A stretch of DNA of 64,000 nt from Thermodesulfobium narugense DSM 14796 (lineage in GTDB: Bacteria; Thermodesulfobiota; Thermodesulfobiia; Thermodesulfobiales; Thermodesulfobiaceae), in assembly GCF_000212395.1 (NCBI RefSeq), contig NC_015499.1, positions 1,137,001 through 1,201,000 of the forward strand, in the 5' to 3' direction. Within the stretch, counting starts at the first letter, position 1, and every line of letters starts with the position of its first letter. The notes under the pieces were generated by a model, which was given only the letters and a program-made list of their open reading frames with translations, searched no databases and was not told the origin of the DNA. Both the position numbers and the translations under genes were made by a program. Of the stretch, positions 1 to 16,053 are shown piece by piece.

Positions 1-344
1 GCAAGATGAGTTTTTCCTACACCAGGAGGCCCAATAAGGAGAATGTTTTTTGTCTCATCAATAAACCTCATTGATAGAACTTCATTTATCAGTGTTTTAT
101 CAACTGATGAAGATGAAAAATCAAAGGTGTCTATAGTTTTTATCTTTGGAAAACCTGCAAACTTCAGCATAGTCTGTTTTGCTCTTTGATTTCTTGCTTC
201 ATATTCAGCTTCAAGCAGAAGACAAAGGAATTCAGCAAAGGATAAACTCTCTTTAGCTGCTTTATCTGCAAGAAAACTATAGTTTTCTAATATGCCCTTT
301 AATTTTAGATTTATGCAGTATTCTTCTATCCTTGAATTAAGCAT
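1..344 (-). CDS. istB: IstB-like ATPase of an IS21-type element (partial, 3' end outside window)
   Basis: IstB is the AAA+ ATPase helper of IS21 transposases. The visible N-terminal 114 residues include a helical lead and end in a Walker A motif, GPPGVGKTHL. The ATG lies inside the last codons of the upstream istA (shared bases ATGCTTAA), the usual translational coupling of istA and istB. The gene runs off the left edge, so its integrity is unknown. Its partner IstA has lost its N-terminus, so the pair is probably inactive. Confidence 0.8.
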   Translation of the reverse strand, partial: MLNSRIEEYCINLKLKGILENYSFLADKAAKESLSFAEFLCLLLEAEYEARNQRAKQTMLKFAGFPKIKTIDTFDFSSSSVDKTLINEVLSMRFIDETKNILLIGPPGVGKTHL

Positions 345-1056
345 AGTTGTCTTCTCCTATTAAGAGCTTTTCATACTCAGAAAGGTTTGTGTAGTAAGGA
401 TGAAAGCTTTTGTCCATGTAAACTTCTTTCTTACTGTTTTTATTACTATCTTTAATATTATTTTTATTACTATCTTTTTCACTTACAAATAGATTATTTG
501 GTACTTTACTTAAATAACTTAGTTCCTCTTTTAACATATCAAAGGGTTTTTTGTTTGTTGTTGCATGAATCCTGTTATTTGCACTGGTAAGCCAGGAAAA
601 TATATAGGCATTTAAGAGATCTGGTGTTATATCTATTGGCGTATTCTTTAGCTTTGCCTTCAATGGTTTATAAAAGTTATTTTTTAGATATAGATTGAAT
701 CTTTCAACCTTTCCCTTGGTTTTAGCTCTGTAGGGCTTACATAGTTTTGGTATAAATAGACCTTTGGAAAAATCAAAAAATTTGTTGTTAAAGCCATGTT
801 CATTTTGCCCATATTTATCTCTTTGAATTACTACAGATTTTAGGTTATCATAGAGTATAGTCTTTGGTATCCCGCCAAAGTAGTCAAACGCTTTTATGTG
901 GCAGGATTGGAATGTGTCCTGCCACATGTTGTCTGTAAAGTAAACAAAAGCTGCTCTTGAATAGGATAAAACCATAACAAAAGCATAGATTGGCTTCTTT
1001 CCACTTCTAACAGTTGTCCAGTCAACTTGAGCTTGAAAGCCTTTATCTGTGAGGTG
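337..1056 (-). pseudogene. istA: IstA transposase, 5'-truncated (IS21 family)
   Basis: The open frame carries the DDE/integrase core. QAQVDW, with the first catalytic Asp, lies at about 1020-1035; an Asp-Asn pair in YDNLKS lies near 840; KGKVERFN, with the catalytic Glu, lies near 710. The N-terminal HTH domain expected before QAQVDW is absent: the frame hits a stop at 1057-1059 and the sequence beyond belongs to an oppositely oriented IstA. The C-terminus is short and rich in Asn/Lys/Ser repeats before the istB overlap. IstA binds the element ends and catalyses strand transfer; this copy should not. Confidence 0.8.
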
Positions 1057-1062
1057 TTAAGG

Positions 1063-1762
1063 ATGGAAGACTGGGTAACAATAATTAATCTGAAGAAACG
1101 TAATCCAAGTATGGGAACAAGAAAGATTGCAAAGATTCTGGGAGTATCTCGCAATACTGTAAAAAGGGCTCTTAAGAGTGAAACCTATCCTTCCTATGAG
1201 CGGGAAAAGATGGTTTACAAGGAACTTGAACCATTTCATGAGTTTATCAAAGAGGCTTTTGTCTTTAAAAGACAACGAGTATCTGCAATCATATCTAACC
1301 TGAGATCTAAAGGCTACAATGGCTCTAACATAGCTGTTTACCGTTACATTAATGAACATTTCAAAGAGTTAAAAGGATATTTCTACAAAAACATACGAAC
1401 CATATGAAACATCTCTTGGTGAACAAATGCAATATGAAAGGAAAAGCAGAAAAACCATTTGACTTTATTGAGCACAACCTTATCAAAAATAATAATTTTT
1501 GATTCGTTTGAAGATTTTTATTTTAAGCTGAAGAGATTTCAAGAGGAATTTAATAATCTTTATCACAGCACTATTAAGGGAGTCCCTAATCAGTTCTTTG
1601 AAATAGAGAACTTTTAATTTCTTGCCTGAAAAAGAGTTATTTTTATCATCATTTCTTGAATCAAGAAAAGTAACTTTAGATTGTCTAATAAGCTACAATG
1701 GTAACAGATATTCTGTACCGCATTATTTTTCAGGTAAAGAGGCTTGGGTTATGTGTGCTTAA
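1063..1762 (+). pseudogene. istA: IstA transposase remnant with frameshifts and deleted catalytic core
   Basis: An ATG at 1063 with an upstream GAGGTG opens about 115 codons with a typical IstA HTH (GTRKIAKILGVSRNTVKRAL). A one-base shift in the A-run near 1387-1391 puts the next segment (TYEPYETSLGEQMQ) in another frame. Right after it the sequence jumps to GKAEKPF, so most of the DDE core is missing. Further downstream are FEDFYFKLKRFQEEFNN and, after another shift near 1615, the C-terminal ISYNGNRYSVPHYFSGKEAW ending in TAA at 1760-1762. That last part matches the C-terminal beta-domain of IS21-type IstA. Confidence 0.8.
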
Positions 1763-1788
1763 TATAAAAATGTTATTTATGGTATAAT
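1759..1788 (+). promoter_or_regulatory. Promoter of the RiPP-like cassette
   Basis: An extended -10 (TGG followed by a perfect TATAAT at 1783-1788) lies 43 bases before the start codon of the 63-residue precursor gene. A weak -35 (TTAATA, 4 of 6) sits 18 bases upstream. The -35 overlaps the last codons of the decayed IstA, so the promoter may partly derive from IS end sequence. Confidence 0.6.
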
Positions 1789-1831
1789 ACTAATATTAAT
1801 TAGAATAATCTAAATTTAAGGAGGTTGTGGG

Positions 1832-2023
1832 ATGTTAAGGGAAAAAGATTTGGCAAGAGCAAAGATTTCTATTTCAAAAGAGGAACTATTAACTGAAACT
1901 GGTTCCTACGATCACAGCATGCAAAGACGTTGGATTGGAAAAGATCTTAAGTTAATTAAGTACAGCATGAAAAGTTCAACTATGTTTGATGGAGAGTCTA
2001 AATCTACTGAAGCAGATTCTTAA
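1832..2023 (+). CDS. Putative graspetide (omega-ester/amide RiPP) precursor peptide
   Basis: A 63-residue peptide with a strong AAGGAGG ribosome site. It sits directly upstream of an MvdD-like ATP-grasp ligase and an ABC exporter, the position of graspetide precursors. Residues 1-44 would be the leader (charged, a probable helix around DLARAKISISKEELL). Residues 45-63 would be the core, rich in donors (S45, K47, S48, S49, T50, S56, K57, S58, T59) and acceptors (D53, E55, E60, D62). The core reads as two blocks, SSTMFDGE and SKSTEAD, each an ST followed by acid-x-acid. There is no Cys and no microviridin TxKYPSD-type core or PFFARFL leader motif. The precursor role rests on context and composition; I recognise no named family. 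Confidence 0.6.
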   Translation: MLREKDLARAKISISKEELLTETGSYDHSMQRRWIGKDLKLIKYSMKSSTMFDGESKSTEADS

Positions 2024-2032
2024 CTAACCTTG

Positions 2033-2065
2033 GTCCACGTCAACTTAGCTGACGTGGACTTTTTT
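2033..2065 (+). terminator. Intrinsic terminator/attenuator between precursor and modification genes
   Basis: A perfect 10-bp stem (GTCCACGTCA at 2033-2042 with TGACGTGGAC at 2050-2059), a 7-base loop and six T residues. It lies 10 bases after the precursor stop and 17 bases before the start of the ATP-grasp gene. No new promoter is visible between them, so partial read-through would give many precursor transcripts per enzyme transcript, as is common in RiPP operons. Confidence 0.85.
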
Positions 2066-2081
2066 AAGAAAGGGGATCTAG

Positions 2082-3029
2082 TTGTTATTTATATTTTCTA
2101 CCACATATGATACAACAGTAGATCTTTTGGTTTATTATATTGGGTCAGATAAAGTTTTTAGATTTAATACTGATATTTATAAGGATTATAAAATTTTTAT
2201 AGATGAAAATTCATTTAGAATTGAAGATCCTACAGGGAGAAGCATTACAAATAAAGAAATAAAAAAGGTATTATATAGAAAACCTCTAAAAGTGAAGGAT
2301 ATCTTTCCTGAAGAAAATTTACCGACTGAAGAAATATATTACGAGAAAGAAGTCTGGTATGTGATGAGAGAAATGATTAACCTTCTCTGGTCTGAAGAGA
2401 AGATCGTTTTGGTCGAGCCCCTTGTGGACTATAGAGTAGGAAAATTTGTTCAGCTAAGATGTGCAAAAAAATATTTTAATGTGCCTAAATTTATTTTTAG
2501 ATATGGTATTGATAAGTTATTAAGTACAAAGGGTGAAGTGATTATTAAAAGCTTAACATCAGAACCAATTTTTGATGATGGATCAGTTATTTTTGCTACA
2601 AAAGTAAAACAGGAAGAGTTGGATATTAGTTGTCCATGGTTTGTTCAGGAATATATTCATTCTCAAAAGGATATTACAGTTGTTTTTGTAAGAGATGAGA
2701 TTTTTGCTTTTGAGCTTGATAGGACTGTTTTTCTTGATAAAACTATTGACTGGAGAGAGTTATCGGTTGATGTTACTACTGATATGTGGGCTGAACACAA
2801 ACTTCCTGATTATATGAGAAATTCTATTTTTTCTTTTATGATGGATTTGAAACTTCACTTTGGTAGGTTTGATTTTTTGTACAATAATAATAAATATTAC
2901 TTTTTAGAAATAAATCCTAATGGCCAATGGGCATGGTTAGATTCTGAACGAAAAAATAAGTTGTTAGATAAAGTCATCAATGAGATATCTCCTGACACGC
3001 CTGTTTATAGTATACCCTACTTAAGATAG
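2082..3029 (+). CDS. ATP-grasp RiPP ligase, MvdC/MvdD-like (graspetide synthetase)
   Basis: A 315-residue ATP-grasp protein. The family activates Asp/Glu side chains of a precursor as acyl phosphates and joins them to Ser/Thr (ester) or Lys (amide), making macrocycles. The N-terminal part (VDLLVYYIGSDKVFRFNTD, residues 13-31, then LYRKP) follows the MvdD pattern of RxNTD then a YR/WYRR element. The C-terminal part has DWRE (about 226), a helix before LHFGRFDFL, and the metal/ATP-binding FLEINPNGQW (274-283), matching FLEINPxGxxxW of MvdD-type enzymes. The start is TTG, preceded by AAGGGG at good distance. The stop abuts the ATG of the exporter, so the two are co-expressed. Confidence 0.85.
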   Translation: MLFIFSTTYDTTVDLLVYYIGSDKVFRFNTDIYKDYKIFIDENSFRIEDPTGRSITNKEIKKVLYRKPLKVKDIFPEENLPTEEIYYEKEVWYVMREMINLLWSEEKIVLVEPLVDYRVGKFVQLRCAKKYFNVPKFIFRYGIDKLLSTKGEVIIKSLTSEPIFDDGSVIFATKVKQEELDISCPWFVQEYIHSQKDITVVFVRDEIFAFELDRTVFLDKTIDWRELSVDVTTDMWAEHKLPDYMRNSIFSFMMDLKLHFGRFDFLYNNNKYYFLEINPNGQWAWLDSERKNKLLDKVINEISPDTPVYSIPYLR

Positions 3030-4724
3030 ATGATAGAAGTCTCTAAATATTTTCTTAGATATAAAAAGATTATTTTTTTTATATTTCTTCAAATTGTTAT
3101 TATTCAAGTATTTCAACTTCTTAAACCATGGCCTATAAAGTATATATTTGATTATATTGTAGAAGAGAAAAACCTTCCCCTTTTCCATATAGATCATCTT
3201 CCTATTGATTTTCAACTTTTTGCTCTTTGTATAGCATTTGTTTTAATATACTTTTTATTAGGGGCTTTTGTATTAGCAAACAATATAACTAAAATGTCTT
3301 TTGGTAATAAAATACTGAACGATATTAGAATTGATGTTTTTCGAAAACTGCAGAAAGTTCAAATGTCTTACTTTAATAAAAAATCTGTTGGAGATCTTAT
3401 ATACAGAGCTATAAATGATACTCAAGCTATCCAAATTGTTGCAACGAAAATAATGTTTCCGCTTTTTTCTTCTACTATACTTCTTATTGGAATATTTATA
3501 GTAATATTCCAAATTAATAAAAAATTATTGTTTGTTTTCTTATTAACCATTCCATTTTTGTTTATTTCTATTTCTTTCCTGAATAAAAGTATTTATAAAA
3601 TCTCAAATAATTTAAGAGAAAAGGAAAGTAGATTGCTTTCTGCAATTGAAAATTATTTAAATAATATTTTTGTTATTAGACTCTTTAATATGGAGGATAT
3701 AGAGCATAAAAAACTAGAAGTTACAGGTCGTGAAGCCTTAAAATCCAATCTTCAACTTAACCTTTTTGAAACAATTCATGCATGGGTAGTTAACGTTTTG
3801 ATTGCTCTTGGAACTTCTTTAATACTTTGGATTGGAGTTAGGCAGGTTTTGAATAGTGAGTTAACAATAGGAGATTTAATAATTTTTATTTCTTATTTAG
3901 AATCTTTATATGGACCTATTAATAATATTTCACAGAGTATTAGCTTGTATTACGAATCACAATCTGGAATTAAAAGAATTTTATCTTTATTAAACGAAAA
4001 AGAAATAATTGTAGATGGCAGAAAAGTAATAAAGGATAACTCTATAGAAAACATTGAATTTAAAAACGTTTATTTTTCCTTCGATTCAAAAAAATATATA
4101 ATTAATAACGCTAATTTTAAAATCCTTCGTCATGAAAAAGTTGCTTTGCTGGGCAAATCTGGATCTGGAAAAACTACAATTGCATCTTTAATAGTTAGAA
4201 TTATTGAACCTTCGATTGGAGAAATATTAATCAACAACCTTAATATTAAGGACATAAAGATAAAATCTCTTAGAGAGAATATTTGCCTGGTAACTCAAAG
4301 GCCAATAATATTCAATGGAACTATTTTTGAAAATATAAACTATTCGAATAAAAGTGGGACAAGATATGACTTAGATGAGATCTTGGAAATTGTTTGTTTG
4401 GACAGTTTTGTAAGAAATTTGCCAGATCATTTGGATACACAAGTTGGGGAAAAGGGCGCAAAGTTGTCTGAAGGTGAGAAACAAAGAATATCTCTTGCAC
4501 GTGCGCTGCTTACAGATGCTGACGTGTTTATTTTTGATGAAGCTACTTCTGCTATTGACAAAGATACTCAAGATAAGATTTTTGAAAGAATTATGAAAAA
4601 ATTTGAAGATAAGACTATTCTTTATGCTACTCATAGGCTTGAGAATTTAAAGTATTGCGATTACGTTTTGTTAATAAAAGAGGGGAAAATTTTAAAAGCT
4701 GATAAATCAAGTTTAAAAATTTAA
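3030..4724 (+). CDS. ABC exporter, fused transmembrane and ATPase domains
   Basis: A 564-residue half-transporter. Six hydrophobic spans fill about residues 8-300. A nucleotide-binding domain follows with Walker A GKSGSGKTT (about 375), signature LSEGEKQRISLARALL (about 478) and Walker B VFIFDEATSAID (about 500). It probably works as a homodimer in the inner membrane. It has no N-terminal C39 peptidase domain, unlike many bacteriocin exporters, so it would not remove the leader of the cassette peptide; no protease gene is adjacent. The ATG directly follows the TAG of the ATP-grasp gene. The natural inference is export of the modified peptide. Confidence 0.85.
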   Translation: MIEVSKYFLRYKKIIFFIFLQIVIIQVFQLLKPWPIKYIFDYIVEEKNLPLFHIDHLPIDFQLFALCIAFVLIYFLLGAFVLANNITKMSFGNKILNDIRIDVFRKLQKVQMSYFNKKSVGDLIYRAINDTQAIQIVATKIMFPLFSSTILLIGIFIVIFQINKKLLFVFLLTIPFLFISISFLNKSIYKISNNLREKESRLLSAIENYLNNIFVIRLFNMEDIEHKKLEVTGREALKSNLQLNLFETIHAWVVNVLIALGTSLILWIGVRQVLNSELTIGDLIIFISYLESLYGPINNISQSISLYYESQSGIKRILSLLNEKEIIVDGRKVIKDNSIENIEFKNVYFSFDSKKYIINNANFKILRHEKVALLGKSGSGKTTIASLIVRIIEPSIGEILINNLNIKDIKIKSLRENICLVTQRPIIFNGTIFENINYSNKSGTRYDLDEILEIVCLDSFVRNLPDHLDTQVGEKGAKLSEGEKQRISLARALLTDADVFIFDEATSAIDKDTQDKIFERIMKKFEDKTILYATHRLENLKYCDYVLLIKEGKILKADKSSLKI

Positions 4725-4727
4725 TAG

Positions 4728-4756
4728 TTGACTAAAATGATAAATTTTTATACAAT
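4728..4756 (+). promoter_or_regulatory. Promoter of the nifS-iscU operon
   Basis: TTGACT at 4728-4733, a 17-base spacer and TACAAT at 4751-4756 make a good sigma-70-type promoter, 82 bases before the nifS start. It begins just after the stop codon of the ABC exporter, so the Fe-S operon can be transcribed separately from the RiPP-like cassette. Confidence 0.6.
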
Positions 4757-4760
4757 AAAA

Positions 4761-4779
4761 GTTGAGTAAATTAGTAAAC
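4761..4779 (+). promoter_or_regulatory. Possible Rrf2/IscR-type operator at the nifS transcription start
   Basis: GTTGAGTAAATTAGTAAAC is an imperfect 19-base dyad (arms GTTGAGTAA and GTTTACTAA) immediately downstream of the -10 box, where a repressor would block initiation. A related half-site, GTTGACTAA, overlaps the -35. IscR-like Rrf2 regulators of low-GC bacteria use TTGACT-like half-sites, so Fe-S-responsive control is plausible. No regulator gene lies nearby. Confidence 0.35.
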
Positions 4780-4838
4780 TATTTTGAAAAATAGAAATTA
4801 AGCAAACTTTTTAAAATAAGCATTAAGGAGGAATTAAG

Positions 4839-6047
4839 ATGAAAAAATCTATTTATATGGATTATGCAGCTACTACCTTTGTAAGACAAGAAGTTTTAGA
4901 TGAGATATTACCTTATTTTAAGGACTATTATTCTAATCCTTCATCCTTATATTCTTTTGCTGAAGATTCTAAGAAGGCAATTAAGTTGGCCAGACAAAGG
5001 GTTGCTAGTGTTATAAATTCTAAGGAGGAAGAAATTTATTTCACTTCAGGAGGTTCTGAAAGCGACAATTGGGCAATCAAGGGAATAGCTTTTGCCAATA
5101 AAGATAAGGGAAATCATATTATAACATCTCAAATTGAACATCATGCTGTATTAAATGCTGCTAAATTTTTGGAAAAAAATGGCTTTACTGTAACTTATTT
5201 GCCTGTAGACTCTGATGGTTTTATAAAATTAGAAGATTTGAGAAATGCCATTACGGATAAAACTATTCTCGTTTCCATAATGTTTGCTAACAATGAGATT
5301 GGCACTATTGAGCCTATATCTGAAATTGGAAAATTATGCAAAGAAAAGGGGGTTTACTTTCATACTGACGCGGTTCAGGTGGTGGGACATTTACCAATAG
5401 ACGTTGAATCGATGAATATAGATTTATTGTCTATGTCTGGTCACAAGTTTTATGGCCCAAAGGGTGTAGGGGTTCTTTATGTAAAAAAAGGAGTAAAAAT
5501 AGAAAATCTTATTCATGGCGGAGCTCAAGAAAAGGGGAAAAGGGCAAGCACAGAAAATGTGCCAGGAATTGTTGGTTTGGGCAAGGCTATTGAAATTGCA
5601 CAAAGCGAACAAAATTTTGAGATTAAGCGCCTAACTGCTTTAAGAGATAAATTGATTGATGGCATTTTAAATAAGGTTTCAAATACAAAACTAAATGGTC
5701 CAACAGGAAATTTAAGATTGCCTAACAACGTGAATATTAGTTTTCTTGGTGTTGAAGGCGAAACGCTGCTTTTTGATTTAGACGATGCAGGAGTATTTGT
5801 TTCTACAGGAAGTGCTTGCGCATCGGGTTCTCTAGAGCCTTCACATGTTCTTCTTTCGATTGGGTTATCTCATGAGTTAGCACATGGTTCAATAAGGTTA
5901 ACCCTAGGTTTGAATACCACAGAAGAAGATGTGGATTATGTTTTAGAAATATTGCCAAAAATTATAGAAAAAAGAAGGGCTATGTCTCCTATATGGAGTG
6001 AAATTGTTAGGAAGGAGGAAAAAATATCATGTACAGCGAAAAGGTAA
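4839..6047 (+). CDS. nifS: Cysteine desulfurase (NifS/IscS type)
   Basis: A PLP enzyme that takes sulfur from cysteine and passes the persulfide to an Fe-S scaffold. At 402 residues it has the class length. The N-terminal YMDYAATTFV, the SGGSESDN loop, the HH pair near 100, the PLP lysine in SMSGHKFYGPKG (K203) and the catalytic Cys in VSTGSACASGS (C327) are all present. An AAGGAGG site precedes the ATG. The last 19 bases overlap iscU, so the two are translationally coupled. The pairing with an IscU scaffold makes general Fe-S assembly the likely role; the window is rich in Fe-S clients (two FdhAB pairs, LipA). Confidence 0.95.
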   Translation: MKKSIYMDYAATTFVRQEVLDEILPYFKDYYSNPSSLYSFAEDSKKAIKLARQRVASVINSKEEEIYFTSGGSESDNWAIKGIAFANKDKGNHIITSQIEHHAVLNAAKFLEKNGFTVTYLPVDSDGFIKLEDLRNAITDKTILVSIMFANNEIGTIEPISEIGKLCKEKGVYFHTDAVQVVGHLPIDVESMNIDLLSMSGHKFYGPKGVGVLYVKKGVKIENLIHGGAQEKGKRASTENVPGIVGLGKAIEIAQSEQNFEIKRLTALRDKLIDGILNKVSNTKLNGPTGNLRLPNNVNISFLGVEGETLLFDLDDAGVFVSTGSACASGSLEPSHVLLSIGLSHELAHGSIRLTLGLNTTEEDVDYVLEILPKIIEKRRAMSPIWSEIVRKEEKISCTAKR

Positions 6048-6457
6048 TGGATCATTTTAGAAATCCAAGAAATGTAGGTATTATCTCTGATGCTGATGGA
6101 ATTGGTGAGGTTGGCAATCCTAGATGTGGTGACATTATGAAAGTGTACATAAAGGTCAAAGACAATATAATTGAGGACGTAAAATATGAAACTTATGGTT
6201 GTGCATCAGCAATTGCTTCTTCAAGTATTGCAAGTGAATTGATAAAAGGTAAAACTCTTGAAGAGGCTTGGAAAATTACAAACAAAGCTGTTGCTGAAGC
6301 GTTGGATGGTTTGCCGCCTATAAAAATGCATTGCAGTGTTTTGGCCGAGGAAGCTATACACAAAGCTATTAACGATTACCGTAAATCTCACAACCTTGAA
6401 TTGTGGGAAGAAAGAACGCATGCTGAAGTAATAAAGGAACATCAATGTAATAATTAA
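6029..6457 (+). CDS. iscU: Fe-S cluster scaffold protein, IscU/NifU N-terminal type
   Basis: A 142-residue scaffold on which NifS/IscS assembles [2Fe-2S]/[4Fe-4S] clusters. The three ligand cysteines are visible: C33 in NPRCGD, C58 in YGCASAIA and C102 in KMHCSVLAEEA, with the conserved Asp35. It is IscU-sized and lacks the ferredoxin-like and C-terminal domains of full NifU. Its own AAGGAGG site lies inside nifS. A hairpin follows after 20 bases, closing the operon. Confidence 0.93.
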   Translation: MYSEKVMDHFRNPRNVGIISDADGIGEVGNPRCGDIMKVYIKVKDNIIEDVKYETYGCASAIASSSIASELIKGKTLEEAWKITNKAVAEALDGLPPIKMHCSVLAEEAIHKAINDYRKSHNLELWEERTHAEVIKEHQCNN

Positions 6458-6477
6458 AATTTTGATTATATAGAATC

Positions 6478-6527
6478 AAATAACCACCCTTAGATTCATA
6501 TTATCAAGAATTTTGGGGTGGTTATTT
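6478..6527 (+). terminator. Hairpin terminator after iscU
   Basis: AAATAACCACCC at 6478-6489 pairs perfectly with GGGTGGTTATTT at 6516-6527. The loop is long (26 bases) and the T-run after the stem is weak. The symmetric sequence could act in both directions. Confidence 0.55.
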
Positions 6528-6966
6528 AACATAAAGAGTTGTATGCTCAAGCTTCATTAGAAACACTTTTGAGTTTCTGATAGTAGTTCAGTTTAGTAAC
6601 GTACAGAATTTTCTGTAAAAGTGAAATGATTATCAATAAAGAAAAATAGAAGGCCATCGTCCTCTGATAGAATATAAGTTAGCTAAACAAAAAAAATATC
6701 GGAGGGGACGATAACTAAATATATAATATTACCTTAGTGAATCAGAACAAAGCTAGTCAGATTTTTATGGAGCAAGATGAATCGTGGTCTACTGGTAATA
6801 AGTACTTTGATATGGATGAATATTGGCATAGGTAAGATTTATAATTTTGAAACAAGCCGTAATTATGTCAGAGGGCTAATTTACAGAAAAAATTGGACTT
6901 GATCTAATAAATTTAATTAATTTTTGTGTTAAAATTGACCATACAATAAACAATTTAGAGGATAAA
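6528..6966. other. Gene-free stretch, possible decayed insertion sequence
   Basis: No open frame here carries a recognisable domain. Local structures include a small hairpin AGAAAC/GTTTCT (about 6569-6588) and an imperfect inverted pair, ATCGTCCTCTGATA near 6657 and TATCGGAGGGGACGATA near 6697. Short frames of 30-45 codons between 6740 and 6900 have no recognisable motif. It could be a relic of a transposable element, but I cannot name one. Confidence 0.3.
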
Positions 6967-8082
6967 TTGACTAATTACGAAAAATTAACAATTTTTTCTA
7001 TTATTTCTATCGGTTTTATTCTTGGTTTCGCAGGCTCAATTTTTCCTAATCAGAAAGATTTACTTATCTGGGCATCTTCAACTTCTTTTCAAATTCAAAG
7101 ACTTCACATATTTTTCTTCAATTTAATTGCTGGAGGAACCACAATATTATGGTTTACAAAGAAAGAAATTAACTTTTCAAAAAGCACCTGGCTTTATTTA
7201 ATCACATCTTTTATTTACGCTTTGAGCGCATTTTTAAATCTTTATACGATTTCATTAATTTCTGGAATTCTCTTAATTGTTATAGTTGAAAGAGTAAGAA
7301 TCAAATATTTTGGCATATTTCCCAATGCTTTCTTTGATTATAAAGTCAGCGTTGGCAAAAAATTTCATCTTGCTTCCATACTTTGTCTTTCGATCGGAAT
7401 TTTCCTTGCCCAATTAACAATTTTAAATAATTATTTTATTAAAATAATATCTCCAGATATATTGCCATTAAATTATTTTTATTTAGGTTTTTCTTTTCCG
7501 TTATCTTTAATAATTTTTTCAATTATTTACAATCTGATAGATAGTAACAGCACTACGAGCCTTAGGTTACAAAAAGAAGTTGGTTTCTGGTTGGTTAATC
7601 TTGGTGTTATTATATTTTTCGTGTTCATAATTTTTAAAATAGTTATTGGAGAATTAGTTTGCGCTAGTATATTAATAATATATATATTTTTTACATTTTA
7701 TTTATTTATAAAAAATTCTCAATATTTAGAAAATAAAAAATTTTTGTTATCTGGTTTATTGTTTTTAACTATAACTTCTATTACAGGAGTTTTAATGATA
7801 TACTTACAATTTTCTTATCCTGATACCCAAAGTTATCAGGTTTTAAAAAGCTTTTTGCTCCAAATACATGGCTATTTAGCCCTTTACGGATGGTCTCTCT
7901 CTGGCTTAATTGTAATAATTCGAAAATTATATGTTAATAATATATTCAAAAATAACACAAACATAATAATACATTGGTTTTTACTAACCCTCTTAGTACC
8001 TTTTGGAATTTTTAACTATTGGTTTGCCCTTTTAGCTGCATTTTTATTTACAGTTTATTTTTGGAAAGTTCTTGTAAAATAA
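6967..8082 (+). CDS. Polytopic membrane protein of unknown function, upstream of SQR
   Basis: A 371-residue protein that is hydrophobic almost throughout, with about ten predicted membrane spans. Histidines occur within or at the ends of several spans (QRLHIFFFNL, KKFHLAS, LQIHGYLALYGWSLSGL, IIIHWFLL). That pattern recalls heme-binding membrane proteins, including oxidase subunit I relatives, but I see no diagnostic motif and do not assign a function. The start is TTG with AGAGGA upstream. It lies about 100 bases before a sulfide:quinone oxidoreductase on the same strand, so a role around quinone reduction or oxidation is possible. Confidence 0.55.
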   Translation: MTNYEKLTIFSIISIGFILGFAGSIFPNQKDLLIWASSTSFQIQRLHIFFFNLIAGGTTILWFTKKEINFSKSTWLYLITSFIYALSAFLNLYTISLISGILLIVIVERVRIKYFGIFPNAFFDYKVSVGKKFHLASILCLSIGIFLAQLTILNNYFIKIISPDILPLNYFYLGFSFPLSLIIFSIIYNLIDSNSTTSLRLQKEVGFWLVNLGVIIFFVFIIFKIVIGELVCASILIIYIFFTFYLFIKNSQYLENKKFLLSGLLFLTITSITGVLMIYLQFSYPDTQSYQVLKSFLLQIHGYLALYGWSLSGLIVIIRKLYVNNIFKNNTNIIIHWFLLTLLVPFGIFNYWFALLAAFLFTVYFWKVLVK

Positions 8083-8184
8083 ATATAAACTATAAACAAA
8101 TCATAATAATTATTTTTATAATCAAAACTTAATTTTTAATATATAATATTATAAATATTTTTTTTTTAAAGGTGGGATCCTTAA

Positions 8185-9630
8185 ATGTCAAAAATTGTAG
8201 TTCTGGGAGCTGGAATATCTGGGCACACCGCTTCGTGTTTTTTAAGAAAATATTTAAGTAAAGAACACCAAATTATTGTAGTATCCCCAACGAAAAAATA
8301 TAATTGGATTCCCTCCAATGTATGGGTAGGGGTAGGTGATATGAAACCCGAACAGGTGTTATTTGATTTAGAGCCAATTTATAAAAAAGCAGGTATAGAT
8401 TTTGTTAATGCAAAAGCAACCAAAATTTATCCAGAAGGGAACAAATATATTTCCTCCCCATTTGTGGTAGTAGAAGATATGAATTCTAAAGAAGAAAAAA
8501 ATATTGAATATGATTATTTAATAAACGCAACTGGTCCAAAACTAAATTTTGATGCTACAGAAGGCTTAGGTCCTTCCAGGAACTCTCAGTCAATATGTTC
8601 TGCTTCACACGCTGTTCAAGCGTGGGAAAACCTTAGCTCTTTAATTAAAGATATGAAAAATGGAAAAAACAAAACCATCGTTATAGGAGTTGGACATGGA
8701 ATGGCTACATGTCAGGGAGCAGCTTTCGAATACCTTTTTAATGTAGAATCAAAACTAAAAAGAGAAAAGGTTAGAGATAGAGCAAAAATAATTTACATGA
8801 CCAATGAATACGAACTCGGTGATTTCGGAATGGGCGGTCTGCATTTGAAATATGGTGGTTATATTGCTCACAGCAAAACTTTTACAGAATCACTTTTTGC
8901 CGAAAGAGAGATTTTTTGGATTAAAAGGGCTCATCCACTAGAAGTTGGAAAAAATAAGATAAAATATGAAACCCTTGATGGCACATTCCACGAGCAAGAA
9001 TTTGATTTCGCAATGTTAATACCACCTTTTGCTGGTGTAGGACTAAAAGCTTTTAATAAAAAGGAAGAAGATATAACCAGTTCTTTGTTTTTACCTAATG
9101 GATTTATGAAAGTAGATGGAAACTATAATCCTAAACCATATTCGGAATGGGATGCAGAAGATTGGCCCAAAACCCTTCAAAACCCAACATATAAAAATAT
9201 TTTTGCAATAGGAATTGCCTTTGCACCACCTCATCCAATTAGCAAACCAATGCAAAGTCCTAATAAAACAACAATTTCTCCCACAGCTCCCAGAACTGGA
9301 ATGCCTTCAGCAATGATGGGAAAGGCCGTAGCACAAAGTATATCCAACCTGTTAAAAGGAAAAGATAGGCCCCTACATACTGCAAGTATGGCAAAATTAG
9401 GTGCTGCATGTGTAGCCTCTACAGGAACTGGTCTTTTTTCTGGAACAGCCGTATCAATTATTGTCTATCCCATTGTTCCAGACTTCAAAAGGTTTCCTGA
9501 ATATGGTAGAGACCTTAACTTTACCTTTGGTGATATAGGTCTAGCTGGGCACTGGATTAAACTTCTTTTACATTATGCCTTCATATACAAGGCAAAGCTA
9601 AACCCATTTTGGTATATAATCCCTGAATAG
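8185..9630 (+). CDS. sqr: Sulfide:quinone oxidoreductase
   Basis: A membrane-associated FAD enzyme that oxidises sulfide to polysulfide/sulfur and reduces quinone. The N-terminal dinucleotide fold is VVLGAGISGHTAS (residues 5-17). The three cysteines that define SQRs appear in family-like settings: C138 (SICSASHA), C176 (MATCQGAAFE) and C409 (GAACVASTG). The C-terminal 50 residues (AGHWIKLLLHYAFIYKAKLN) look like the amphipathic membrane anchor. At 481 residues it is at the long end for SQRs. The start has AAAGGTGGGA. In an anaerobe it may detoxify sulfide or feed the quinone pool. Confidence 0.85.
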   Translation: MSKIVVLGAGISGHTASCFLRKYLSKEHQIIVVSPTKKYNWIPSNVWVGVGDMKPEQVLFDLEPIYKKAGIDFVNAKATKIYPEGNKYISSPFVVVEDMNSKEEKNIEYDYLINATGPKLNFDATEGLGPSRNSQSICSASHAVQAWENLSSLIKDMKNGKNKTIVIGVGHGMATCQGAAFEYLFNVESKLKREKVRDRAKIIYMTNEYELGDFGMGGLHLKYGGYIAHSKTFTESLFAEREIFWIKRAHPLEVGKNKIKYETLDGTFHEQEFDFAMLIPPFAGVGLKAFNKKEEDITSSLFLPNGFMKVDGNYNPKPYSEWDAEDWPKTLQNPTYKNIFAIGIAFAPPHPISKPMQSPNKTTISPTAPRTGMPSAMMGKAVAQSISNLLKGKDRPLHTASMAKLGAACVASTGTGLFSGTAVSIIVYPIVPDFKRFPEYGRDLNFTFGDIGLAGHWIKLLLHYAFIYKAKLNPFWYIIPE

Positions 9631-9643
9631 CGAGGTGTTTAAG

Positions 9644-9802
9644 ATGGTAGAAAATAGAAAGCCTTATGAGCAAGCGTTTTTTGCATCAAAACCTTTATGG
9701 TTTACAAAATTCTTGAGAACTTTCTTCTTTTGGCAATTAATTAAATTTATGATTATCAACTTTAAAATGACCCTTATGCTGTTGAGATCACATAGAGGCT
9801 AA
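9644..9802 (+). CDS. Small conserved-looking protein co-translated with SQR (52 aa)
   Basis: ATG at 9644, 13 bases after the SQR stop, with GAGGTG as ribosome site; stop TAA at 9800-9802. The peptide is basic and aromatic-rich, with a hydrophobic/amphipathic stretch (residues 17-47: WFTKFLRTFFFWQLIKF, then MIINFKMTLMLL) that could be a membrane-surface helix or a single span. No family recognised. Tight coupling to sqr suggests a small subunit or anchor of the SQR. Confidence 0.6.
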   Translation: MVENRKPYEQAFFASKPLWFTKFLRTFFFWQLIKFMIINFKMTLMLLRSHRG

Positions 9803-9812
9803 AGTACCGACA

Positions 9813-11159
9813 TTACATCTCATTTAAAGCCTGTAAAATAATATCAAGGTCTTTAGAATATACTGTTTTCATATCCAGAAAATAATAGTCATTTAATACC
9901 CTGCCTACTATAGGGGTATTCCTTCTTGACAAAAAAGTTTCCACATCTTTTGTAGATAAAATGTTATGCTTAATACCAAGGCCTATAGTCTTAAAAGAAC
10001 TTCTAGGGGTAGACCCTCCTCCTAATCTTCCCTCACTTTCAAGAACTTCTAAGGCAAGATTTTTGTTGTTAACGTTGTTCAGAATATATTTTGCATCTTG
10101 CATCATTTCGTTAATTGTTTTTGAAAGCATTCTATAAACAGGTATTTCTTCGTGCCTTTTTTCCAGATAAAGTCTTAATGTCCCCTCAAGCGCACATAAA
10201 GTCATTTTATCAACTCTCAGAACTCTCATTAGAGGATTTTTTCTAATTTTCTCAATTAGTTCATTTTTACCTAAAATTATTCCACATTGCCCTGCTCCTA
10301 GAAGCTTGTCTCCAGAAAAACTTACAATATCTACCCCTTTTTGAATGCTTTCCTGCACAGTCGGTTCGTAATTTAAGCCGTATTTTCTTAAATCAACTAG
10401 ACAACCACTCCCTAAGTCTTCAAAAAGCAATAAGTTTTTTTTCTTTGCAAGAGATGATAATTCATCAATTTCTACGCTTTTAACAAATCCTTCCTGATAA
10501 AAATTGCTTTGATGAGCTTTCATAATTGCTCCCGTTAATTCGCTAATGTTGTTTTCATAATCTCTCAAATGAGTTTTATTAGTTGTTCCTACTTCCTTAA
10601 GAATTGCACCAGAAGAGGTTATAACATCTGGAATTCTGAAAGAACCTCCAATTTCTATAAGTTCAGATCTAGATATTAATACTTCTTTTCTATTAAGAAG
10701 AGTATTTAAAACTATATAAACAGCCGCAGCATTATTATTTACAACCGTTGCATCTTCAGAACCAGTAAGAGCCATAAGTATTTCTCTAATTAACGAATCT
10801 CTTCTTCCTCTTTTGTTATTGAAAAGATCGTATTCAAGATTAGAATAATTAGTAGCTATTTCTACCACTTCTTTAGCAACCAGATCACTTATAGGAGACC
10901 TGCCAAGATTGGTATGCACAATAATCCCTGTAGCATTAATAACCTTTCTTAAAACAGATTTATTAAAAAAATTTAACCTTATCTTTACATTTTCTATAAT
11001 CTTATCTCTCTTAATTTCTTTACCGCTTTTAATATCTTCTCTTGCTCTTTCAACTTCTCTTTGACTGATCAATACACACAAGTCATGGGGGACATTAATA
11101 TCGCTTTTTTTTATTTCCTCAAGAATATAGGATATAGAAGGAAGTTGAGAAAAATCCAT
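9813..11159 (-). CDS. selA: L-seryl-tRNA(Sec) selenium transferase
   Basis: A PLP enzyme that converts seryl-tRNA(Sec) to selenocysteinyl-tRNA(Sec) using selenophosphate. At 448 residues it is close to the family length. The fold-type I pattern is clear: N-terminal INATGIIVHTNLGRSP, the SGDKLLGAGQCG segment with the PLP lysine, and the R-rich LMRVLRVDKMT. It is the second gene downstream of the RND pump and follows an unknown ORF by 7 bases. The window also has a UGA-containing formate dehydrogenase gene (42342-45335), a matching client. selB, selC and selD are not in the window. Confidence 0.95.
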   Translation of the reverse strand: MDFSQLPSISYILEEIKKSDINVPHDLCVLISQREVERAREDIKSGKEIKRDKIIENVKIRLNFFNKSVLRKVINATGIIVHTNLGRSPISDLVAKEVVEIATNYSNLEYDLFNNKRGRRDSLIREILMALTGSEDATVVNNNAAAVYIVLNTLLNRKEVLISRSELIEIGGSFRIPDVITSSGAILKEVGTTNKTHLRDYENNISELTGAIMKAHQSNFYQEGFVKSVEIDELSSLAKKKNLLLFEDLGSGCLVDLRKYGLNYEPTVQESIQKGVDIVSFSGDKLLGAGQCGIILGKNELIEKIRKNPLMRVLRVDKMTLCALEGTLRLYLEKRHEEIPVYRMLSKTINEMMQDAKYILNNVNNKNLALEVLESEGRLGGGSTPRSSFKTIGLGIKHNILSTKDVETFLSRRNTPIVGRVLNDYYFLDMKTVYSKDLDIILQALNEM

Positions 11160-11166
11160 CTTTTAT

Positions 11167-11691
11167 CTACCTGAATAAATTATTAAATTTACATTCAAAC
11201 CTAAAATTGCCCAATTTATTTTCAAAAATTATTTCTTCCTTCTGCAAAGGAGAAAATAAACTTTCAGAGAGATCAAAGAGATACAAACAACGAACGTCAA
11301 TGTGTTTTTCGATAAAAAAATCCGAATCGAGTTTAGAAAGAAAATCTTTTAAGTTCATAGAAAGATCTCTATAATAAAATGTGCACAAATCAATATTTTC
11401 TAAAATATCCCTTAAGGAAAATAAATTCCTTGACATATTGTAAAAACTTACTTCCTTGACATCAAATTTTATTCCCTTTGAAATAAAAGTTTTTCCTGAA
11501 CCAAAAAGTATTGAAAAAAAGGGCGAGACCTTTATACTTTCCAAATCATCATCAATACTTGAAAGCTGCAAAACCCTGTAATTTGGAAATCGTACAAAAT
11601 TGTTATCTTTTACTCTAAATATTTCAAAAACTTCATGTATTACTGGAAAAGAGCCAATATTATTTCTAAAAGTAAATTCTAAAAAAGCCAA
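11167..11691 (-). CDS. Hypothetical protein upstream of selA (174 aa)
   Basis: I do not recognise this protein. It has no signal peptide or membrane span and is rich in Phe, Ser, Asp and Leu, with a predicted mixed alpha/beta pattern. It contains a GSGKT string (SILFGSGKTFIS), but the surroundings do not resemble a P-loop NTPase, so that is probably chance. It lies 63 bases after acrB and 7 bases before selA, so it is probably co-transcribed with selA. Confidence 0.55.
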   Translation of the reverse strand: MAFLEFTFRNNIGSFPVIHEVFEIFRVKDNNFVRFPNYRVLQLSSIDDDLESIKVSPFFSILFGSGKTFISKGIKFDVKEVSFYNMSRNLFSLRDILENIDLCTFYYRDLSMNLKDFLSKLDSDFFIEKHIDVRCLYLFDLSESLFSPLQKEEIIFENKLGNFRFECKFNNLFR

Positions 11692-11754
11692 AATTCTACA
11701 TCTCCCTCTAAATTATTACTAAATTTAATATTACTTTGAAATTATAACTAAAAT

Positions 11755-14700
11755 CTATTTTCTTCTGAAGATCTTATAAGCTACCTTTTCCACAGCTATA
11801 TATAAGACTGGAATTATAAACACACCTATAAAAGTACCAGTTAGCATGCCGCCTACTACAGAAGTACCCATAGCAATTCTTGCACCAGAACCTGCACCAG
11901 ATGCAATTGCTAGGGGTAAACAACCAAAAATAAAAGCAAAAGAGGTCATAAGAATTGGCCTTAACCTTACCTTTGCAGCTTCTACAATAGCCTCAATCTG
12001 GCTCATTCCAGCCTCTTCTCTCAGCCTTGAAAACTGGATTATCAAAATTGCATTTTTGGCAGCAAGACCAATGAGCATTACAAGTCCAATTTGCATATAC
12101 ACGTTATTATTAAGATGCCTTATGTATTGGAAGAAAGTTGCACCAAACATCGCAGTGGGTACCGACAATATTACACTTATAGGAACAAACCAACTCTCAT
12201 ACAAAGCCGCAAGACACAAAAATGCAAAAATTAAAGATAAGGCAAAAAGAATAGGAGCTTTTTGGCCAGATTTTTGTTCCTCCAAGCTTAAATCTGCCCA
12301 ATCATAAGAGAAAGTTGGAGGCAAAACTTTATGAGCCACCTCAACCAAAGCTTGCATAGCCTGACCTGAGCTATAGCCGGGAGCGGGATTGCCACCAATT
12401 TGAATTGCCCTATAATCATCAAATCTTTGTATTACCGATGGAGCATCTGTAAGTTTTGCAGTTGCAAGAGTACTTAAAGGTATCATTTTACCCTCGGAAT
12501 TTCTCACATAAAAAAATTTTATATCATCGGGATTAGTCCTAAATTGAGGCAAGGCTTGCATGGTTACTTTATAAGTCTTTCCATACAGATTTATATCGTT
12601 AACCTCAAGACCTCCATAAAAAGTTTGCATTGTATTGAAAACATCAGTAAGAGGGATACCTAACTTTTTTACTTTGTCTCTATCAATGTTATAGGTATAG
12701 CCAGGCGTATTTGCATTAAACGTTGAATAAATTGTTCCAATTGCAGGCATCTTTTTTGCTTCATTAATAAATTCTTTAGAAATATTATCCATTTCTTGAA
12801 AACTTGCTTCTCCGCCTCTATCCTCAAGCATTATAGTAAAACCACCTCTTGTCCCAATTCCAGGTAAAGAGGAGGGCAGCAGTGGCAAAACTGTTGCATT
12901 AGGAAATTGTTGAGACTTAATAAATATTTGTCTTAAAATGCTTTGTGCAGATAACTGTTGTGTTGTTCTTTCATCCCAGGGTTTAAGTCTTATGAAAATA
13001 ATTCCCGTACTTGAATCAGCAGCAAAAGTCAAAAAGTTTATGCCGTTGACACATGTAACAGCATAGACGCCGGGAATTTGTCTAATTACTTGACCTATCT
13101 CATTTATTTCATTAGAAGTGACGTTCAAACTTGTGCCTTCCGGCAGTGAAATTGCTGCAATAAGATAACCCTGATCCTCATCTGGAACAAAAGAAGTTGG
13201 AAGCTTGGAAACAATAAAAAATGTAACAGCAGTTAGTAGTAAAATAAATATCAAGCCCCATTTGGCTTTTCTTACCAATTTATAAACTATTTGAGAGTAT
13301 TTAGAAATAATTTTTTCGAAGACCTCATTAAATTTGTCAAAAAACTTAGCAAGCAAGCCTTTGTGTTTGTTTGGATCGTAAGGTGTGAGTATCCTTGCAC
13401 ACAACGTAGGTGTAAGAGAAAGTGCTACAACAACAGAAAGTATCATTGAAACAGTTATAGTCAATGCAAATTGCTTATATAAAACTCCCATGGTTCCCCC
13501 AAAAAACGCAACAGGTATAAAAACAGAAGCCAAAACAAAAGCAATTGCCACTATTGCAGCAGAAACTTCTTTCATAGCTCTTTGTGCAGCTTCAAATGGA
13601 GTCATATTATCATATCTAATATGATGTTCAACCGCCTCAATAACAACAATTGCATCGTCAACTACTAAACCAATTGCCAAAACCATAGCAAAAAGTGTAA
13701 GTGTGTTTATAGAAAAGCCAAATACAAGAAATGTAGAGAAGGTACCTATCAACGATACTGGCACAGCAAGCATTGGAATAAGAGTCGCTTTCCAAGAATG
13801 CAAAAAGACAAAAATTACTACCATAACCAAAAGCAAAGCTTCAAATAAAGTTATTAAGACCTCTTTCAATGACTCTCTTATAAAAAGCGTATTGTCTACT
13901 ATAATTTCATACTTCATATCAGGAGGAAAGTTTTTTGAAGCATTTTGTATAATTGCCTTACACTGATCTACAGTTTTCAAAGCATCTGCATCAGGAGTTA
14001 GCTGCACTCCAAAAGATGCCGCATTATACCCATTCATAGTTGAGTTATAAACATAGAATCTACCACCTAAGTTAACTCGAGCAATATCCCCCAACCTCAC
14101 AATGGAACCATCAGGATTAGCTCTTACTATAATATTTTCAAATTCTTGAGGAGTACTTAATCTACCCTTTACCCTAGTAATATATTGAAACGTCTGATCA
14201 GCAGGTATTGGCATTTGACCTATAGTACCTGATGCTGCTTGAACGTTTTGCTCCTTTATTGCGTTATAAACGTCCGTTGTAGTTATACCTAATTGAGCCA
14301 TTTTTTCGGGATTTAACCAAATTCTCATTCCAAAGGGCGATCCATACATCATTACCTGACCAACACCCTTTACCCTTTGTAATTGCTGAACTATATTGAT
14401 ATTCCCATAGTTCGCTAGAAAAGTAGAATCATATGTTCCTTTGGGAGAATAAAGCGAAAAAACAAGAGCATTTTGAGGTGTAACTTTCATTACATTGATT
14501 CCGTATTGAACTACTTCAGGCGGCAATAGGGGAGATGCCTGACCTACTCTATTTTGAGTTTGCACGGTAGCTATATCCGGGTCTTTACCAAGCTCGAATT
14601 GAACTTGCAAGGTATAACTCCCAGCATCAGTGCTTGTGGATAGCATAGAGACCATGCCCTCAACACCATTTACCTGGTCTTCCATCTGCTGTGCAACTGT

Positions 14701-14877
14701 TTGTTCTACTGTTTGAGCATTTGCAGCAGGATAACTTGCTATAACGTTAACCTGGGGGGGAGTAATTTGAGGATAAACTGCAATTGGCAAATTTACCATT
14801 GCAAGAAGCCCAACCAGAACTATTATTAACGAAACTACAATCGCAAAAATTGGGTTTTTAATAAAAAATTGTGCCAT
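11755..14877 (-). CDS. acrB: RND multidrug efflux pump, inner-membrane subunit (AcrB/HAE1 family)
   Basis: A 1040-residue proton-driven exporter, full length for the AcrB group. It has the standard start (FFIKNPIFAIVVSLIIVLVG), 12 membrane spans in two halves and two large periplasmic loops. Proton-relay residues are present: the Asp pair in GLVVDDAIVVIEAVEHH and the Lys in GLAAKNAILIIQFSRL. FVPDEDQGYLIAA starts the second periplasmic half as in AcrB. It forms a trimer with AcrA and TolC, whose genes lie just upstream with a 3-base gap. Confidence 0.95.
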   Translation of the reverse strand: MAQFFIKNPIFAIVVSLIIVLVGLLAMVNLPIAVYPQITPPQVNVIASYPAANAQTVEQTVAQQMEDQVNGVEGMVSMLSTSTDAGSYTLQVQFELGKDPDIATVQTQNRVGQASPLLPPEVVQYGINVMKVTPQNALVFSLYSPKGTYDSTFLANYGNINIVQQLQRVKGVGQVMMYGSPFGMRIWLNPEKMAQLGITTTDVYNAIKEQNVQAASGTIGQMPIPADQTFQYITRVKGRLSTPQEFENIIVRANPDGSIVRLGDIARVNLGGRFYVYNSTMNGYNAASFGVQLTPDADALKTVDQCKAIIQNASKNFPPDMKYEIIVDNTLFIRESLKEVLITLFEALLLVMVVIFVFLHSWKATLIPMLAVPVSLIGTFSTFLVFGFSINTLTLFAMVLAIGLVVDDAIVVIEAVEHHIRYDNMTPFEAAQRAMKEVSAAIVAIAFVLASVFIPVAFFGGTMGVLYKQFALTITVSMILSVVVALSLTPTLCARILTPYDPNKHKGLLAKFFDKFNEVFEKIISKYSQIVYKLVRKAKWGLIFILLLTAVTFFIVSKLPTSFVPDEDQGYLIAAISLPEGTSLNVTSNEINEIGQVIRQIPGVYAVTCVNGINFLTFAADSSTGIIFIRLKPWDERTTQQLSAQSILRQIFIKSQQFPNATVLPLLPSSLPGIGTRGGFTIMLEDRGGEASFQEMDNISKEFINEAKKMPAIGTIYSTFNANTPGYTYNIDRDKVKKLGIPLTDVFNTMQTFYGGLEVNDINLYGKTYKVTMQALPQFRTNPDDIKFFYVRNSEGKMIPLSTLATAKLTDAPSVIQRFDDYRAIQIGGNPAPGYSSGQAMQALVEVAHKVLPPTFSYDWADLSLEEQKSGQKAPILFALSLIFAFLCLAALYESWFVPISVILSVPTAMFGATFFQYIRHLNNNVYMQIGLVMLIGLAAKNAILIIQFSRLREEAGMSQIEAIVEAAKVRLRPILMTSFAFIFGCLPLAIASGAGSGARIAMGTSVVGGMLTGTFIGVFIIPVLYIAVEKVAYKIFRRK

Positions 14878-14880
14878 AAA

Positions 14881-16053
14881 TTACTTTATACCCAAAGACT
14901 CAGGAGTAACCTCTATGACCTTAACAGTAGTTCCAGTAGGAGCCTTCTGGAACCCTTCAACAATAACGTTGTCGCCAGGCTTGAGTCCCTCTTCTACAAC
15001 CCAGAGAGAGCCTATTCTCGGTCCCATTTTTACAGGGATCATTTGTGCCTTGTTATTACTGTCAACGATAGTGACAAAAGTTTTATCTAGAATTTGCTGA
15101 ACTGCCATCTGTGGCACAAGAATAGCATTTTTCAAATGTCCCTCCAAAAGAACTACCTTGGCAAACATACCGGGAACAAGAATATTATCAGGATTTGGGA
15201 AAAGCGCTTTTATTGAAAGGGTACCTGTATTCTGAGTAAGTCCTCTATTTATTTCAGTTATTTTCCCAGGATACTTATAGGTTGTTCCATCAGAAAGCAC
15301 AAGTTTAACATTTTTTCCTACATCGCTATTAATTGGATCAATGCCATTTTTAATCATATTTAGATAATCATTTTCGGAAATACTGAACAATACATACATC
15401 GGATCAGGTGATGACAAAGTACACAACACAGTCTGACCGGCAGTAACAAACGCGCCTAAGCTCAAATCATCTCCTACACCCAGCTTACCACTAAAAGGTG
15501 CAACAATTAACGTATCACTCAAATTATCTTCAGCCTGCTTCAGATTTGCTCTCATTGCTTCCACGATTTGATAATCTTGCTTGGCAATTGATGTGGCAGT
15601 ATCTGAAGTCTGTTGAGGAACAGCATCCTGAGCAGCAAGAATTTTATATCTATCAGCATCAAGCTTTGCATTCTCATAATTTGCAATTGCCTGTGCCAAC
15701 TGTGCTTTTGCCTGAAGAACAGCGGCTTCATAGGTTCTTTTATCAATTTGAAATAGAGGTTGACCTTTCTTAACTACTTCACCGCCCTTTATATACTTTG
15801 CAACTATATTACCGGAAACTTTGGCTCTGATTTGAACGTCGTTTACAGCTTCTACCTGCCCTACATAATCCTGATACACGTCAGTGTCCCTTACTATAAC
15901 TTTCATTGCCTTAACTACTGGCATTTGGCTTACAGGTGTATTCCTCTTGTTGAGAAGGCTAAGGGTTAAGCCTAAAACTATAAGAATGCCAATAACCAAA
16001 GATGCTATTAAAACTTTTCTTTTAGAAATATTTTTTAACATATTTTTTAACAT
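14881..16053 (-). CDS. acrA: RND periplasmic adaptor (AcrA/MexA type)
   Basis: A membrane fusion protein linking AcrB to TolC. It has one N-terminal hydrophobic segment (VLIASLVIGILIVLGLTLSL) and no lipobox Cys, so a membrane anchor is more likely than a lipid anchor. It continues with the lipoyl-like half-motifs (VEAVNDVQIRAKVSGNIV and DTLIVAPFSGKLG), a coiled-coil hairpin between them, and the beta-barrel region ending NAILVPQMAVQ. The start region has a tandem ATGTTAAAAAAT, so the second Met is an alternative start. Third gene of the tetR operon. Confidence 0.93.
   Translation of the reverse strand: MLKNMLKNISKRKVLIASLVIGILIVLGLTLSLLNKRNTPVSQMPVVKAMKVIVRDTDVYQDYVGQVEAVNDVQIRAKVSGNIVAKYIKGGEVVKKGQPLFQIDKRTYEAAVLQAKAQLAQAIANYENAKLDADRYKILAAQDAVPQQTSDTATSIAKQDYQIVEAMRANLKQAEDNLSDTLIVAPFSGKLGVGDDLSLGAFVTAGQTVLCTLSSPDPMYVLFSISENDYLNMIKNGIDPINSDVGKNVKLVLSDGTTYKYPGKITEINRGLTQNTGTLSIKALFPNPDNILVPGMFAKVVLLEGHLKNAILVPQMAVQQILDKTFVTIVDSNNKAQMIPVKMGPRIGSLWVVEEGLKPGDNVIVEGFQKAPTGTTVKVIEVTPESLGIK

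Follow-up and report, generated by a model that had tools for sequence, protein, structure and literature searches.

A predicted graspetide gene cluster with a single ATP-grasp ligase in Thermodesulfobium narugense

The window analysed here is a stretch of 64,000 nucleotides from the genome of Thermodesulfobium narugense DSM 14796 (NC_015499.1, positions 1,137,001 to 1,201,000). Near its start lie three adjacent genes, for a short putative precursor peptide, an ATP-grasp ligase and an ABC exporter, which form a three-gene cluster in this heat-loving, sulfate-reducing bacterium. In window coordinates, the locus features:

1759..1788, + strand: promoter-like site TTAATA-18-TATAAT with TG ahead of the second hexamer (10/12 matches; consensus match only)
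1818..1824, + strand: ribosome-binding site AAGGAGG of the precursor gene (read from the sequence; kept in 4/4 genomes)
1832..2023, + strand: putative precursor peptide gene, 63 aa (homologues in three sister genomes and a Chlorobiaceae MAG; dN/dS)
1964..2020, + strand: predicted core, residues 45-63, SMKSSTMFDGESKSTEADS (Ser/Thr/Lys/Asp/Glu conservation relative to the Chlorobiaceae homologue)
2032..2060, + strand: intrinsic terminator (putative attenuator) between precursor and ligase genes (hairpin; covariation in four sequences)
2082..3029, + strand: predicted ATP-grasp graspetide synthetase, 315 aa (NCBIfam, PDB profile, tree, fold, invariant residues)
3030..4724, + strand: ABC exporter with membrane and ATPase domains and no C39 peptidase, 564 aa (domain search; position in sister genomes)

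A sequence-only reading of this DNA had listed a 63-residue open reading frame with a strong ribosome site, a terminator behind it, an ATP-grasp gene with DWR and MvdD-type FLEINPxGxxW motifs, and an ABC exporter, and all of these were located as given above, with AAGGAGG 7 nt upstream of the precursor ATG. The ATTTATGGTATAATAC stretch around the promoter-like site is largely conserved across the three sister genomes, and among the four genomes of the genus the ribosome site is conserved, as is the greater part of the -10 region. The terminator helix is kept in 4/4 genomes, with 40/40 cells paired and two compensatory base-pair changes among the four genus sequences. The precursor itself is 86-92% identical to its counterparts in the three sister genomes and 59% identical to the Chlorobiaceae MAG homologue. 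Within the genus it shows almost no variation over residues 22-63 and none over residues 45-60, which are the same in 4/4 genomes despite differing codons. Values of dN/dS of 0.04-0.16 indicate strong purifying selection, and no second copy was found in the host genome. Because the DNA is AT-rich, the reading frame alone would be weak evidence. The case for it is strong because frame, hairpin, ligase and exporter are ordered alike in 4/4 genomes of the genus, because dN/dS in the frame is low, because the hairpin shows compensatory changes, and because a different phylum also has a homologous frame close to a homologous ligase. A precursor-like frame, anticipated in relatives, was thus found in all four genus genomes and in the Chlorobiaceae MAG.

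The ligase gene begins with a TTG codon that is conserved in relatives, and in its product DWR spans residues 223-225 and FLEINPNGQW residues 274-283. It is the only such ligase in the 1.9-Mb single-contig host genome, in keeping with the single ligase expected from the earlier reading. Nothing significant was found for it in Pfam. In NCBIfam it matched TIGR04185 (3e-29), TIGR04187 (2e-26) and TIGR04184 (4e-25), all far below the cut-offs, the models being those of the microviridin/SAV_5884 maturases MvdC, SAV_5884 and MvdD; such scores are expected for a new family, yet are no proof of function. The precursor matched no Pfam or NCBIfam precursor model. Searched against PDB sequences, a ligase profile matched only CdnC, AMdnB, 5ig8 and 5ig9, the last two being Microcystis macrocyclases named MdnB and MdnC in the structure comparison. 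An AlphaFold model derived from 45 ligases (pLDDT 92) resembled most closely MdnC (Z 26.2), AMdnB (25.3), PruB (24.5), CdnC (24.2), MdnB (24.0) and PsnB (23.2); the first nine PDB entries are graspetide synthetases throughout (four of them PsnB; Z 21.6-26.2), and RimK follows at 18.4, with RimK and LysX/ArgX at Z 16.9-18.4. Residues R66, K121, K156, D223, R225, D264, E276 and N278 do not vary among the 45 ligases, and D223, R225, E276 and N278 are among those expected in an ATP-grasp active site. Invariance of the PNGQWAW stretch is in part a product of selection, since this stretch served as the search pattern in the alignment scan described below. NCBIfam matches, PDB profile, tree and fold all place the ligase in the graspetide-synthetase branch of ATP-grasp proteins.

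The 19-residue tail contains four acids, as the earlier reading had counted, and ten Ser/Thr/Lys residues, not nine. Of its Ser/Thr/Lys/Asp/Glu positions 12/14 are identical in the Chlorobiaceae homologue and 13/14 are of the same chemical class, compared with 9/19 identical in the leader (tail 12/14 vs leader 9/19, Fisher p=0.027, uncorrected for the choice of core boundary and drawn from one diverged homologue). Among the other tail residues, 3/5 have changed; within the core alone, the contrast gives p values from 0.04 to 0.22, varying with boundary and measure. All four tail acids (D53, E55, E60, D62) are kept, as are the possible donors S45, K47, S48, S49, T50, S56, K57, S/T58 and S63. 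The two exceptions are S58, replaced by Thr, and T59, replaced by Asn, so that T59 cannot be an essential ring donor. The expectation that donors and acids are retained while other residues drift was thus borne out, T59 excepted, and conserved C-terminal Ser/Thr/Lys donors and Asp/Glu acceptors are present as judged from one diverged sequence.

Precursor, ligase and exporter occur in the same order in 4/4 genomes of the genus, the only genus by which the phylum is represented (four genomes), and an encoded precursor beside the ligase is thus conserved in relatives. A close-relative scan of genome contigs with the window ligase alone as query found nothing. The alignment scan of genome contigs recovered ligases in the Chlorobiaceae MAG (L013; 58% identity), in three Verrucomicrobia as well as a Gammaproteobacteria MAG (36-38%), and in many genomes of Kiritimatiellae type (about 30%). 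Positions 4310-4501 of L013 hold the 59% identical precursor homologue, MLTPKDLARPKGYISHAALVAETGNYDYETQSRWNGNDSNLVKWSTKSSTSWDGESKTNEADS, and only a transposase-like IS gene (L013:4747-5850) stands between it and the ligase. As the ligase was present in 1/98 genomes of the Chlorobia class, it may have arrived by horizontal transfer, or the contig may be misbinned; whichever its origin, this copy is independent and diverged. At E 1e-40 the ligase was present in 1/2 genomes of the order of the Gammaproteobacteria MAG and in 2/384 genomes of the Verrucomicrobia class. No relatives were found in viral contigs, and a plasmid search gave matches of only 21-31% identity.

The exporter is found at the same position in the three sister genomes (68-69% identity). 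Its membrane domain begins at residue 15, and no C39 peptidase domain was found in it. Neither a leader protease nor an acetyltransferase was found in the locus, in agreement with the earlier reading, and the precursor lacks a GG doublet (strict Gly-Gly scored). The sole C39-type domain found in the host genome is that of an RTX type I transporter. This 703-aa protein was considered as a leader peptidase and rejected: it adjoins RTX, TolC-like and HlyD-like proteins, the usual catalytic Cys near the N-terminus was not seen, and an HlyB-type exporter is its likelier identity. Its surroundings form a complete-looking type I secretion locus (L100:106-9182, genome 80105-89181), with a 1428-aa RTX-type protein and TolC-like, C39-type ABC and HlyD-like genes.

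Directly downstream of the cluster lie IscS/NifS and IscU/NifU genes (window 4839-6457), syntenic in 4/4 genomes. They were discarded as cluster members, being housekeeping Fe-S genes that are merely adjacent in the genus and have their own spacing and ribosome site. Window positions 1-1760, directly upstream of the promoter-like site, consist of mobile-element debris, which lies at the upstream edge of the cluster. Bases 1-1050 have two further genomic copies at 100% identity and represent an IS, recently active, that carries an integrase-core gene; bases 1051-1751 resemble pieces of an older IS found elsewhere in the genome. When window 1-15000 is compared with sister genome G001, a block containing a 371-aa membrane protein (6967-8082), the segment 8185-9630, a SelA-like gene (9813-11159) and an RND pump (11755-14877) is inverted and stands on the opposite flank of the cluster.

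In a midpoint-rooted tree the window ligase groups with those of L013 and the Gammaproteobacteria MAG (support 95/89), and this group joins Verrucomicrobia and Kiritimatiellae types in a 27-ligase clade (100/100). The microviridin-like Chryseobacterium ligases fall outside it, in a different clade (alignment score about 24 with the window ligase), and a Collierbacteria ligase (L043) falls in the other clade. Precursors of the Verrucomicrobia/Kiritimatiellae ligases have Thr-rich C-terminal cores with Asp-Asp. YDxxxQxR occurs in the Verrucomicrobia precursors as it does in the window precursor, and the Kiritimatiellae-type precursors (n=19) mostly start with MTPxDIAT, two with MSTPLDLAT. Alignment columns Thr30, Ser/Thr/Cys32 and Asp43-Asp44 are present in 19/19 Kiritimatiellae-type precursors and Thr27 in 17/19, with varying spacing residues; in most of these loci an ABC exporter lies upstream of the precursor. 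In five rumen/gut precursors (L022, L024, L026, L028, L032) Cys stands where the other 14 have Ser/Thr, and such a Cys could possibly be a natural thioester donor. One bridging Verrucomicrobia precursor (G373, L098:2451-2753, - strand), with LTPSALA, YDWQTQT and TATYSFNAIDDWNSD, combines window-type leader motifs with a Kiritimatiellae-type Asp-Asp core. Comparison of precursor profiles gave a weak 22% probability with the Verrucomicrobia set and no significant match with the Kiritimatiellae set; precursor homology across the whole clade is suggested by the ligase tree, by where the genes lie and by short motifs.

NCBIfam matches, the nine best PDB entries, the 100/100 clade and the tail comparison agree, and so support the graspetide-type cluster proposed in the sequence-only reading. 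The cluster very probably makes a graspetide by means of a single ATP-grasp synthetase, with rings in the C-terminal 19 residues, followed by export. A strong promoter and ribosome site would drive expression of the 63-aa precursor, and the terminator would pass only part of the transcripts, such that precursor outnumbers enzyme; the conserved terminator is a plausible means of providing more substrate than enzyme. The synthetase may bind the leader, the N-terminal DLAR/LTPxDLA stretch and YDxxxQxR being candidate elements. It would then phosphorylate Asp/Glu side chains of the tail, which nearby Ser/Thr/Lys would attack, a chemistry established for graspetide synthetases according to PMC13097080 and PMC8939145. 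Up to four ester or amide (macrolactone/macrolactam) rings could form, the four tail acids setting the maximum. The ABC protein would export the product. In view of the missing GG site and of an exporter without peptidase, the leader, if removed, would require an enzyme whose gene lies outside the cluster. Characterised graspetides are described in PMC8939145 as protease inhibitors, and by analogy one may guess at such an activity here, in which the conserved aromatic residue 52 could determine specificity.

A different product would result if the ligase were RimK-like and added amino acids to the C-terminus or side chains of the peptide without ring closure. RimK and LysX/ArgX are indeed the next structural matches, and the C-terminus of the precursor is acidic, but all six graspetide synthetases score clearly higher than RimK and the family models matched are those of peptide maturases. 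The Ser/Thr/Lys residues of the tail are moreover conserved along with its acids, which addition to acids would not need, and this reading appears improbable. Even less credence is due to the idea that the small frame is a regulatory leader peptide or a chance frame, with the true substrate elsewhere: the attenuator-like terminator behind it would fit, yet purifying selection acts strongly along the whole frame, its C-terminus is constrained, a homologue lies near a homologous ligase in another phylum within different flanking DNA, and the genome holds no second copy.

More weight, although well short of an even chance, attaches to a graspetide that is active as the entire 63-aa protein or as a longer C-terminal piece of it, an explanation that is compatible with the preferred one. 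The lack of a GG site and of a linked peptidase, the exporter without C39, the assignment of the genome's sole C39-type domain to the RTX transporter and the near-invariance of residues 22-63 in the genus all point this way. Against it, most characterised graspetides are cut from their leader, and in the Chlorobiaceae homologue the leader has drifted more than the ring-capable residues of the tail. To return to the preferred reading of a graspetide with rings in the tail, it may tentatively be extended, with less assurance than the reading itself: the window cluster would represent an undescribed graspetide group with a core folding as two short donor-acid blocks (KSST..D.E and SKS.E.D) and up to four rings, at one extreme of a broader clade, also undescribed (27 ligases in the tree, several phyla), in which a YDxxxQ/LTPxDLA-type leader is common, the core varies, and Cys at the Ser/Thr donor column of some rumen members would allow a natural thioester link.

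The locus would add to the graspetides a core and leader unlike any motif compared here, and, as far as the literature search shows, a new phylum: no report was found that names both graspetides and Thermodesulfobium, nor any graspetide report for the phylum. Its three genes are compact enough for a direct co-expression test, the likely thermostable synthetase could be a useful peptide-crosslinking tool, and the Verrucomicrobia and Kiritimatiellae precursors offer a natural series on how ring patterns change within one synthetase lineage.

Among known core motifs are TxKxPSD of the microviridins, the TTxxxxEE repeats of plesiocin and TxxTxxxExxDxD, none of which is matched by the window core. 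The microviridin group 1 systems (MdnB/MdnC, AMdnB, CdnC) are alike in ligase fold, ATP-grasp motifs and clustering of precursor, ligase and exporter, but use two ligases instead of one; TxKxPSD and the PFFARFL leader are absent from the window precursor, as the earlier reading had maintained, and a GG site and acetyltransferase are likewise lacking. In plesiocin (PsnB) and other single-ligase graspetides all linkages are made by one ligase, according to PMC8939145. PsnB is similar in this respect and in fold (Z 23), but TTxxxxEE repeats are absent from the window and PsnB was not found by the sequence search of the PDB. Branch 1 of the candidate-phyla graspetides, described in PMC8939145 with a TxxxTx(6-10)Dx(1-4)D core and a Phhx(1,2)h leader, also has short precursors with Ser/Thr donors followed by acids, but these core and leader motifs are absent from the window precursor, which has no proline at all and no Gly-Gly cleavage site. 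Among known precursors, roughly half have no Phhx(1,2)h and roughly half no double glycine (PMC8939145), so these absences do not exclude a graspetide.

The closest resemblance is to the Kiritimatiellae/Verrucomicrobia loci, which share the 100/100 ligase clade, a small precursor gene immediately ahead of the ligase gene, an LTPxDhA-like N-terminus and, in most Kiritimatiellae-type loci, a nearby ABC exporter. They differ in their core (TxxTx(S/T/C)...DD, against KSST..DGESKSTEADS in the window), in ligase identity to the window (29-38%) and in the exporter, which lies upstream there and downstream in the window and is 22-29% identical. PMC8939145 lists 174 graspetide families, and numbered groups are delimited in PMC13097080 by a synthetase network at alignment score 70 with 20 or more members. 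By our own estimate, made against the ligases gathered here, the window ligase scores 110 with the Chlorobiaceae ligase, 54-56 with its nearest others and 41 or less beyond. The close group linked at scores of at least 70 has five members (the genus and L013) and is probably unnumbered, because new numbered groups needed at least 20. With a leader and core that match none of the family models and published motifs compared, it most likely represents a new, small graspetide family.
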